Shown here in pieces: positions 26,299 to 29,537 of a stretch of DNA of 64,000 nt. How positions within the stretch are numbered: the first letter of the stretch is position 1; every line of letters begins with the position of its first letter. A program made the position numbers and the translations under genes. Source of the stretch: Aliidiomarina sp. (GTDB lineage Bacteria; Pseudomonadota; Gammaproteobacteria; Enterobacterales; Alteromonadaceae); assembly GCF_022565475.1 (NCBI RefSeq), contig NZ_JAIUMR010000008.1, forward strand, positions 82,415-146,414. Reading direction: 5' to 3'. The notes under the pieces were generated by a model. That model had not been told where the DNA came from. It worked only from the letters and a program-made list of their open reading frames with translations, and did no database searches.

Positions 26299-28350
26299 AT
26301 GACCGCAAAAAGCAATTCGCGTTGGAAATCGATGCTGCTGATGCCGGTGTTCATTCCCGCTGTCGCTGTCATTACCCTGTTAGTGATTGGAACTCTGTCA
26401 AACCCTGAGTTAGCCGGTGAGTTCTTCTCGGCGACACTGGCTCGCATTACCGAAGATTTCGGTTGGTTCTACATGCTTGCAGTTGCCCTATTTTTAATGT
26501 TTATCGTCATCGTTGGTATTTCCAAGTGGGGACGAATCAAGCTGGGCCCTGATCACGCCGAGCCGGAATATAGTTTCTTGTCTTGGTTCGCCATGTTGTT
26601 TTCAGCCGGCTATGGTATCGCCCTGCTCTTTTTCGGTGTTTCCGAGCCGGTCTTGCATTATGCCAGCCCGCCTGAAGGCGCCGCGTTAACTGTCGACGCC
26701 GCAAAACAAGCGATGCAAATCTCCTATTTCCACTGGGGTTTCCATATTTGGGCTATCTATGGTCTGGTGGGCTTAGTTTTGGCCTATTTTTCGTTCCGCC
26801 ACGGACTGCCGCTGTCCATGCGCTCAACGTTATATCCGATCATTGGCGAGAAAATTCATGGCCCAGCCGGCCATGCCGTCGACACCTTTGCAATTCTTGG
26901 CACCATGTTTGGTATTGCCACAACCTTGGGTCTTTCGGTCATTCAAATTAATGCTGGCTTAAATTACATTTGGCCGACCATTCCGGTGTCCACCATCGTC
27001 CAAGTCATTGTCATCTTTGTCATCACCTTGATGGCTATTGCCTCGGTTGTTGCGGGTTTGGATAAAGGGGTCAAACGCCTATCCATTGTGAATATGACCT
27101 TGGTCATGTTCCTATTGTTATTCGTGTTCTTTGCCGGACCTACCGTACATATTCTTGAGACTTTCTTGCAGAACACAGGTAGCTATCTCAATTACATTGT
27201 TGAGCGTACCTTTAATTTGCAGGCCTATAGCCGCAGTGACTGGATCGGCAACTGGACCTTGTTCATCTTTGGTTGGACAATTGCCTGGGCACCATTCGTT
27301 GGTCTCTTTATCGCCAAAATCAGTCGTGGCCGCACCATTCGCCAATTTGTCTTTGGCGTTATGTTAGTTCCAACTATCTTTACCTTTTTCTGGTTCTCGG
27401 TGTTTGGTGACACCGCGTTACACATGATCATGAACGAAGGTCTCGATACCCTGATTGCCGACGTGCAGGCGGACCAGGCTATTGCGCTGTTCAAGTTGTA
27501 TGAGAATCTGCCATTGACCAGCATTCTCTCGTTTGTCACCGTCGTGCTGATCATGACATTCTTTGTCACCTCATCCGACTCAGGCTCGCTGGTTATCGAC
27601 TCGTTAGCCTCCGGTGGTCGCATGGACACGCCTGCTTGGCAGCGGGTGTTCTGGGCAAGCTCAGAAGGGATTGTTGCTGCCGTGCTGTTACTTGCTGGCG
27701 GACTCACTGCCCTGCAAACTGCGGCAATTGCCAGTGCACTGCCGTTCGCCATTATTATGCTATTGGCGGCCGTTGGCATGTGGCGAGCGTTGGTTATCGA
27801 AGGTCACCAATTCGACAGTTTGAAGAGTGCTGCAAAAATTCACCGTCGTGGCGTTCATTCTGGTGCCAACTACTGGAAAAAACGCTTAGCGGGCCTGGTT
27901 GACTATCCGAGTAAAGCCAAAGTCGAAACCTTTATTCGCGAAACTTGTAAAGACTGTCTCGAAGAAGTACGAGCAGAGCTTGAGTCACAAAAATGGCAAG
28001 CAGAAGTATCACTCGAAGAGGATCCGACTCGAGTTGTTCTTCACGTCGACCGTGCTGACGCTGATTTCACCTACGAAATCCGCATTCGTGGCTATGCCCG
28101 CCCAGAGTTTGCAATGTTGCAGAAACGCACAGAAAGTGACGAATACTTCCGTGCTGAAGTCTTCCTCCGTCAGGGTGGTCAAGCGTACGATGTCTATGGT
28201 TTTGAAAAGGCTGATATCATTAACGATGTACTCAACCAATTCGAAAACTATTTGGCATTCCAGCACCACTCGCCAAGCTCATTACCTTGGGACGTGGCAC
28301 AACATGACGACGACCTCAATCTTGACGAAGAGCCAGAGGTGAAGAGCTAG
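26299..28350 (+). CDS. BCCT family betaine/choline/carnitine transporter with long cytoplasmic C-terminal domain
   Basis: 683 aa, HWGFHIWAIYGLVGLVLAYFSFRHGLPLSMRS, GWTIAWAPFVGLFIAKISRGRTIRQF; BetT-like C-terminal extension. Confidence 0.93.
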   Translation: MTAKSNSRWKSMLLMPVFIPAVAVITLLVIGTLSNPELAGEFFSATLARITEDFGWFYMLAVALFLMFIVIVGISKWGRIKLGPDHAEPEYSFLSWFAMLFSAGYGIALLFFGVSEPVLHYASPPEGAALTVDAAKQAMQISYFHWGFHIWAIYGLVGLVLAYFSFRHGLPLSMRSTLYPIIGEKIHGPAGHAVDTFAILGTMFGIATTLGLSVIQINAGLNYIWPTIPVSTIVQVIVIFVITLMAIASVVAGLDKGVKRLSIVNMTLVMFLLLFVFFAGPTVHILETFLQNTGSYLNYIVERTFNLQAYSRSDWIGNWTLFIFGWTIAWAPFVGLFIAKISRGRTIRQFVFGVMLVPTIFTFFWFSVFGDTALHMIMNEGLDTLIADVQADQAIALFKLYENLPLTSILSFVTVVLIMTFFVTSSDSGSLVIDSLASGGRMDTPAWQRVFWASSEGIVAAVLLLAGGLTALQTAAIASALPFAIIMLLAAVGMWRALVIEGHQFDSLKSAAKIHRRGVHSGANYWKKRLAGLVDYPSKAKVETFIRETCKDCLEEVRAELESQKWQAEVSLEEDPTRVVLHVDRADADFTYEIRIRGYARPEFAMLQKRTESDEYFRAEVFLRQGGQAYDVYGFEKADIINDVLNQFENYLAFQHHSPSSLPWDVAQHDDDLNLDEEPEVKS

Positions 28351-28385: not shown

Positions 28386-28698
28386 CGCTTAGCGTGTTAG
28401 CTGCTTGGTTGAGAGCCTAGCTGCTTGTTAGCTGCGGTTGGAAGCGAGGCTGCTCGTTCTCAGAGTATATGAGGCATGGATGCCGAATATAAGCCCCCAG
28501 GGATGGGTTTACGGCGTCTCTGAGAATGAGTAGGCCGATTTCGAACCAAGTAGCTTGTTAGCTGCGGTCGGAAGCGCGGCTGCTCGTTCTCAGAGTATAT
28601 GAGGCATGGATGCCGAATATAAGCCCCCAGGGACGGGTTTACGGCGTCTCTGAGAATGAGTAGCCCGATTCCAAACCAAGCAGCTAACAGGCTAAGCG
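28386..28698. repeat. MITE-like element: 25-bp terminal inverted repeats enclosing two tandem ~130-bp palindromic units
   Basis: CGCTTAGCGTGTTAGCTGCTTGGTT (28386-28410) vs AACCAAGCAGCTAACAGGCTAAGCG (28674-28698), 24/25 complementary; 28431-28550 vs 28561-28680 direct repeat with 6 differences in 120 by eye. Confidence 0.85.
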
Positions 28699-28724: not shown

Positions 28725-29537
28725 TTATGGCAGTAAACGATAATCGCCGAACGCTGGGTAGGTTTCAGAGAGATAGTCTTCCGTGGCTCGAAGTTCAGTT
28801 AAACGAGTGCAGAAATAGTCGCTGCGTGCTTCGATGTCTGCGCCCCAAGCTTCCATTTCGGTTTCAAGGTTCGCCGCCATGGTTTCCATCCGTTGTTCGA
28901 ATTCGTCGATACCACGTTGACCACGAATTAACATGCGTCCCACCATCATTAACATCGAGCCTTTTGCGTTGGTGATCAAATCTTCCATCTCTTCTTCAAT
29001 GGTGGCCCCGATCCGATCGCCAAACGCGTCCAATTGCGTCCCCTGCACCACAAACATGCCGTTGTCTTCGTAGGCAATCATGGCGAGATCATCACGTAAT
29101 CGATCAGTCAGCTTATCCATCCGACGGACAATCCGATGACGCTTACCGAACATCTCACCAAAGGTCATGGTTAATGCATAGTTCGTCATCTCGAGCGCTT
29201 CATCCAACACTTCAACGATAAACTTCGTTTGTTCAGCAAGGCCATCTTTATAGGCCACAAAGTGGGCACGATCGGCATCCGCAACTGCAATCGCTTGTCC
29301 GTTCACATAAACCTGACCATCGGCGTGAATCCGAAACACTTCATTCGTTCCTTCACGCAAAGTTAATGCTTCAGGGCTGATATAAAGATCTTTATCGAGC
29401 GACATATTGCAGCCGTTGCCATGGTCAATGACCTGAAAGGCATTGGTTGTCGATTTGACCGCTGGCGCTTTCGGCTCCGCTGGAGGCTCGATCGCCATGG
29501 TTTGAAGTCCGCTTAACATTACTAGTGTTGTAATCAT
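28725..29537 (-). CDS. YggN-like (DUF2884) periplasmic protein
   Basis: Start at MITTLVMLSGLQTMA; DLYISPEALTLR, VYVNGQAI and FVVQGTQLDAFGDRIGATIEEEMEDLI. Confidence 0.75.
   Translation of the reverse strand: MITTLVMLSGLQTMAIEPPAEPKAPAVKSTTNAFQVIDHGNGCNMSLDKDLYISPEALTLREGTNEVFRIHADGQVYVNGQAIAVADADRAHFVAYKDGLAEQTKFIVEVLDEALEMTNYALTMTFGEMFGKRHRIVRRMDKLTDRLRDDLAMIAYEDNGMFVVQGTQLDAFGDRIGATIEEEMEDLITNAKGSMLMMVGRMLIRGQRGIDEFEQRMETMAANLETEMEAWGADIEARSDYFCTRLTELRATEDYLSETYPAFGDYRLLP

Follow-up and report, generated by a model that had tools for sequence, protein, structure and literature searches.

The segment at 28386-28698 of the window (the whole stretch of 64,000 nucleotides that was analysed) is probably, as judged from its sequence and predicted fold, a TwoAYGGAY-like RNA element and not a classical MITE. 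It is a dispersed, structured element and would represent a gammaproteobacterial variant of the TwoAYGGAY kind, with CsrA binding as the leading candidate mechanism. In particular, we consider it modestly probable that the GGA strand of these dispersed copies, as a predicted RNA transcript, would offer two CsrA/RsmA sites to a single dimer.

The locus and its tandem units

The original prediction placed the segment between the converging ends of a BCCT gene and a YggN-like gene, a site confirmed here by the Pfam families of both neighbours, and described it as a MITE-like element with 25-bp terminal inverted repeats (TIRs). The repeat itself exists: of the 25 positions in the stretches 28386-28410 and 28674-28698, 24 are complementary, and the pair can be extended to 40-nt arms that are 80% complementary. 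It was also correct that no clear target-site duplication is present, the bases outside the arms containing no direct repeat beside 28386 or 28698. Nevertheless, the inverted repeat forms just the outer border of a larger structure, and the tandem interior, two 130-bp units each with its own cruciform core, had been overlooked. The folding z-scores of the segment were -11.5 as RNA and -10.6 as DNA, with none of 100 shuffles equally stable, and a search for promoter-like or terminator-like sites between the BCCT and DUF2884 genes found none. The features are as follows:

26299-28350, forward strand: BCCT transporter gene (PF02028), stop at 28350; read-through from it would yield GGA-strand RNA
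28386-28698, forward strand: whole palindromic segment, two tandem units within locus-specific outer arms
28386-28410, forward strand: outer arm on the left, described originally as a 25-bp 'TIR'; specific to this locus, not in other copies
28413-28542, forward strand: first 130-bp tandem unit (unit 1)
28433-28549, forward strand: sub-gathering match to RF01731 TwoAYGGAY (21.1 bits; gathering 43)
28461-28522, forward strand: core of unit 1, in which a CAGAG...CTCTG stem closes the three-way junction that carries hairpins A and B; covariation; match of model R1 at 28452-28530
28466-28491, forward strand: hairpin A of unit 1, hexaloop AUGGAU at 28476-28481, C-G closed, stem with a tandem G-A mismatch
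28493-28515, forward strand: hairpin B of unit 1, hexaloop AGGGAU at 28499-28504, C-G closed, with a TTTAC bulge and a GCC/GGC base
28543-28672, forward strand: second 130-bp tandem unit (unit 2), with 93% identity to the first
28563-28679, forward strand: sub-gathering match to RF01731 TwoAYGGAY (23.7 bits; gathering 43)
28591-28652, forward strand: core of unit 2, loops AUGGAU (28606-28611) and AGGGAC (28629-28634); match of model R1 at 28582-28660
28674-28698, forward strand: outer arm on the right, described originally as a 25-bp 'TIR'
28725-29519, reverse strand: DUF2884 (YggN-like) gene (PF11101), converging, with the nearer 3' end; the element is antisense to it

In each unit, a long palindrome carries a three-way junction on top, from which two small hairpins with C-A-N-G-G-A-Y-G loops emerge, the two GGA motifs of a core lying 20 nt apart. 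In the window, hairpin A reads GGC-AUGGAU-GCC and hairpin B CCC-AGGGAU-GGG, followed by TTTAC and GGC. Copies in which both loops fit CANGGANG number 125 of 137 in the genus and 86 of 93 in the class-wide set, which was retrieved by a pattern that fixes hairpin B, so that only hairpin A is independent there. The A-GGA positions of the loops carry 1.9-2.0 bits (about 1.95 among 140 distinct genus copies), the variable parts among these 140 being the loop N positions, the stems and the arms. Changes on both sides were found in 17 of 29 stem pairs among the own-genome copies, which none of 500 shuffles equalled, and in 25 of 29 pairs class-wide. In these alignments the loops are nearly invariant and the stems covary, as in structured RNA.

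Dispersal of the core and the nature of its arms

A BLAST search with the segment hit ten other sites in the genome, the majority of the alignments being confined to query positions of about 71-141. Since most matches cover the interior and the 25-bp ends match only themselves, the conserved unit is, on the alignments, an internal core of about 60 bp. With a covariance model derived from 13 copies, 14 strong copies were found in the source genome, and the core was also present in 16 of the 18 other genus genomes, with a maximum of 43 copies per genome. Matches were obtained in 52 of the 274 genomes of the class sample, while the 19 matching genomes of the phylum sample all fell within Gammaproteobacteria, no sampled genome outside that class giving a match; the plasmid and phage collections searched gave none either. 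In addition, a scan of named genomes with an exact pattern was positive in Stenotrophomonas, Marinobacter, Methylomonas, Methylotuvimicrobium, Thioalkalivibrio, Ectothiorhodospira and Sedimenticola, as well as in Pseudidiomarina, Aliidiomarina, Erwinia and others. A replication-strand bias of the copies was also considered and dropped, their positions in one genome (G292) being patternless by eye.

The description of the segment as a non-autonomous mobile or structured repeat holds in so far as the core is dispersed, the number of units varies between sister species (one at the BCCT/DUF2884 junction of G001, versus two in the window) and seven genus members have the same gene junction as an empty site. 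Tandem arrays of five to seven cores, with a fairly even spacing of about 166-246 bp, were seen elsewhere (L136; L140 in G017; G495:C1:94431-95646); read as RNA, such arrays would present ten or more CsrA-type loops.

Beyond the core, every locus has an inverted repeat of its own, with a median of 44 bp, whose pairing lies above the 98th percentile of cross-locus pairings in 99 of 149 copies. When orthologous copies were compared, the arms had often changed on both sides (14 pairs at infB-rbfA and 12 at an alkaline phosphatase locus, core included), broken pairs being common as well. Being locus-specific, the arms that contain the reported 'TIRs' are, on these comparisons, not transposon ends. 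An origin as a classical MITE, whose 25-bp terminal inverted repeats would be shared with the DDE transposase that moves it, would explain the presence of terminal inverted repeats, the lack of an ORF and the dispersed relatives of the interior; nevertheless, the 25-bp ends occur at this locus only, the arms differ between loci and no target-site duplication accompanies them, so this origin is regarded as very improbable and the TwoAYGGAY-like element as the better description.

Several further observations were made on the arms. At several loci of the source genome they have internal-loop motifs in common, for instance GCTTCCGCGG opposite CGCTNGCGCTGGCTTCG. Both arms of a single locus (C11, about 96 kb) contain repeats of about 36 bp, arranged in tandem and mirrored between the arms. 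The idea that the arms are split intrinsic terminators was rejected, as the right arm has no T-run beyond it and the left arm no preceding A-run; the infB-rbfA copy differs in this respect, its arms being flanked by AAAA...TTTT. A conserved spacer within inverted pairs, as in a core-spacer-core transposon, was rejected too, since inspection by eye found no sequence common to all the printed spacers from many loci.

The probable folding strand and the placement near genes

Pure DNA palindromy predicts equal numbers of G-T and A-C mismatches in the arms. Counted outside the model and on the GGA strand, these stood at 251:121 (p about 1e-11; 73:20 by copy), and at 40:14 by copy in other lineages, where the total was weaker (122:94, p=0.07). 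The excess was found in both orientations to the nearest gene (156:72 antisense, 49:21 sense). As G-T exceeds A-C whichever the direction of the gene, the GGA strand is probably the molecule that folds, either as RNA or as single-stranded DNA.

This asymmetry would fit single-stranded DNA too, and a purely DNA-level, REP-like mobile palindrome, whose GGA strand would fold while single-stranded at replication and whose loops would be conserved for a transposase and not for CsrA, is an alternative that we take seriously even if we find it unlikely. It would account for the dispersal, the inverted pairs, the tandem arrays and the locus-specific insertion, and the copies are intergenic and often lie between convergent genes, as published for REPs. 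Nevertheless, no core-flanked Y1_Tnp gene was found in 19 genus genomes or in 4 genomes of the Stenotrophomonas group. In fact, when the 1.5-kb flanks of 47 Y1_Tnp loci were searched for the core, a single weak match was obtained, about 1 kb away (G009), and none of the loci is flanked by the core. Y1_Tnp genes are common in the genus (at least one in 18 of 19 genomes), and element copy number does not track them: one genome with 20 copies has none (G008), and two others have Y1_Tnp and no copy (G015, G016). Mobilisation by RAYT/TIRYT enzymes, an idea taken from the report of TIR repeats near Stenotrophomonas tyrosine transposases (PMC3733652), was rejected on the lack of a core-flanked Y1_Tnp gene; the sole RAYT-like Y1 transposase gene of the source genome (G000:C21:11604-11942) has no adjoining core. 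Moreover, the copies have no conserved columns corresponding to a GTAG tag at the foot of the hairpin, and the sequence and size of the loops match the CsrA RNA site exactly, variable positions included, which argues against this alternative.

According to the gene caller, no copy of the genus set lies within a gene, and the 88 classified intergenic spaces comprise 35 convergent, 47 tandem and 6 divergent ones. The GGA strand is antisense to a gene whose 3' end lies within 150 bp in 67 of 87 cases in the genus (p about 4e-7) and in 40 of 58 in the class-wide set. Adjacent inverted pairs point outward (-,+) in 17 of 17 cases in the genus set, and one (+,-) pair occurs in the class-wide set. A copy was also observed between infB and rbfA, within an essential operon (L071:7708-7786 and L092:2772-3132), the sister genome having two copies there.

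The seven genus members without the element at the BCCT/DUF2884 junction each have, by eye in the sequence, a terminator-like hairpin there. Of the convergent gene ends lying within 150 bp of an element, 19 of 51 had an intrinsic terminator, fewer than the 37 of 52 controls (p=0.0007), and a stricter scan gave 8 of 51 versus 21 of 52 (p=0.008), counts in which orthologous loci are incompletely independent and some were entered more than once; a lenient first scan, too permissive, had been replaced. These results, together with the frequency of convergent over divergent spaces, would favour a transcription-end element, in which a long palindromic hairpin replaces the intrinsic terminator in both directions and the loops are secondary. 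We judge this improbable: the U-tract of an intrinsic terminator was not found after the arms, conservation is higher in the loops than in the stems, a feature for which a terminator has no need, some copies occur within operons, infB-rbfA among them, and the repeated entry of orthologous copies affects the terminator count.

A role in sense 3' UTRs was rejected as a general rule, the orientation being mostly antisense. Since the GGA strand is usually antisense near 3' ends, the 3' UTR of a normal mRNA would often carry the inactive strand. The antisense bias fits either a purging of copies that load CsrA onto mRNAs or an action on read-through or antisense RNA.

Proposed CsrA/RsmA sites and relation to known systems

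CsrA/RsmA recognises an ANGGAN hexaloop, and two sites separated by 10-63 nt can be bridged by a single dimer, with an optimum above 18 (PMC7652899). The core presents two such hexaloops, both closed by C-G, with the GGA spacing within this range, and the source genome (G000) has 2 matches to csrA. From the closed loops, their spacing and the presence of csrA, we infer binding of a CsrA dimer to the GGA-strand RNA. Matches to csrA were found in 48 of 52 element-bearing genomes versus 235 of 274 overall, so the counts of element and regulator do not separate; the element-bearing genomes with no csrA match are G052 and G144 (less than 80% complete), G113 (88%) and G239 (98%). As a separate observation, CsrB gave no match at the Rfam cut-off in the 19 genus genomes, and the customary decoy RNA may have diverged or be absent. 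A literature search on CsrA together with palindromic repeats returned nothing relevant.

In the mechanism proposed, transcription of the GGA strand would start at a weak promoter or result from read-through of a neighbouring gene, which in the window would be the BCCT gene. The resulting RNA would fold into a long hairpin whose two loops could be bridged by one CsrA/RsmA dimer, each copy acting as a small CsrA decoy or as a mark on read-through transcripts at gene ends. The element also occupies the position at which relatives keep an intrinsic terminator. Its spread would depend on a DNA-level process, while copies would multiply locally by tandem duplication. A bolder version, that of a mobile family of CsrA decoys in Gammaproteobacteria with tens of dispersed copies, mainly at gene ends and antisense to the nearest gene, which titrate CsrA/RsmA or mark read-through and antisense transcripts and whose copy number tunes the regulator, is put forward as a speculation that we consider doubtful.

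TwoAYGGAY has so far been an orphan motif of Rfam, for which a CsrA role has been proposed in the literature (PMC4333381). The present analysis would tie it to a far larger dispersed repeat family of Gammaproteobacteria, spanning Stenotrophomonas, Marinobacter, methanotrophs, purple sulphur bacteria and Pseudidiomarina, and provides an alignment, a model and the likely active strand. If CsrA binds, intergenic repeats usually dismissed as clutter would belong to the Csr/Rsm network as a distributed component; if it does not, the exact match to the CsrA hexaloop needs another explanation.

Among known systems, the decoys CsrB, CsrC and RsmX/Y/Z also have repeated GGA hairpin loops at a spacing suited to one CsrA dimer, but these are encoded by one or a few dedicated genes, whereas the element is a dispersed intergenic repeat. 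The E. coli sRNAs RrA, RrB and RrF bind CsrA and are made by terminator read-through (PMC8144298), offering an analogy for the action proposed here, that of a CsrA-binding read-through RNA at a transcript end; unlike the element, they are restricted to rRNA operons and not dispersed, and no sequence relation to it is apparent. The REP, BIME and GTAG- or CGTC-tagged palindromes (PMC3733652) are likewise short and intergenic, prefer convergent spaces and form inverted pairs and clusters, some of them inside longer palindromes; the element differs from them in its three-way junction and conserved loops, and in the lack of a conserved GTAG tag or an adjoining RAYT gene.

The closest likeness is to TwoAYGGAY itself, a motif discovered by comparative genomics (PMC2864571) and classed by Rfam as cis-regulatory, for which CsrA binding was proposed from its two CsrA motifs and in which the external stem is poorly conserved and tandem G-A pairs occur (PMC4333381). 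The differences lie in the scores, since at the gathering threshold Rfam finds nothing in the window and neither unit reaches 43 bits, in a much shorter hairpin B, and in the Rfam annotation of the element copies tested, which does not include RF01731; at 15 further loci there was no RF01731 match above the cut-off. Nevertheless, RF01731 is the best weak Rfam match of both units, on the same strand, and the alignment pairs both loops as well as the AAG, UUUAC and CGG segments. Two hairpins with AYGGAY-type loops in one three-way junction, a variable outer stem and, in hairpin A, the tandem G-A are common to both. Furthermore, in several gammaproteobacterial genomes the matches to RF01731 are also multi-copy, dispersed palindromes with outward inverted pairs (G069, G130, G201, G284, G311; L360-L365).
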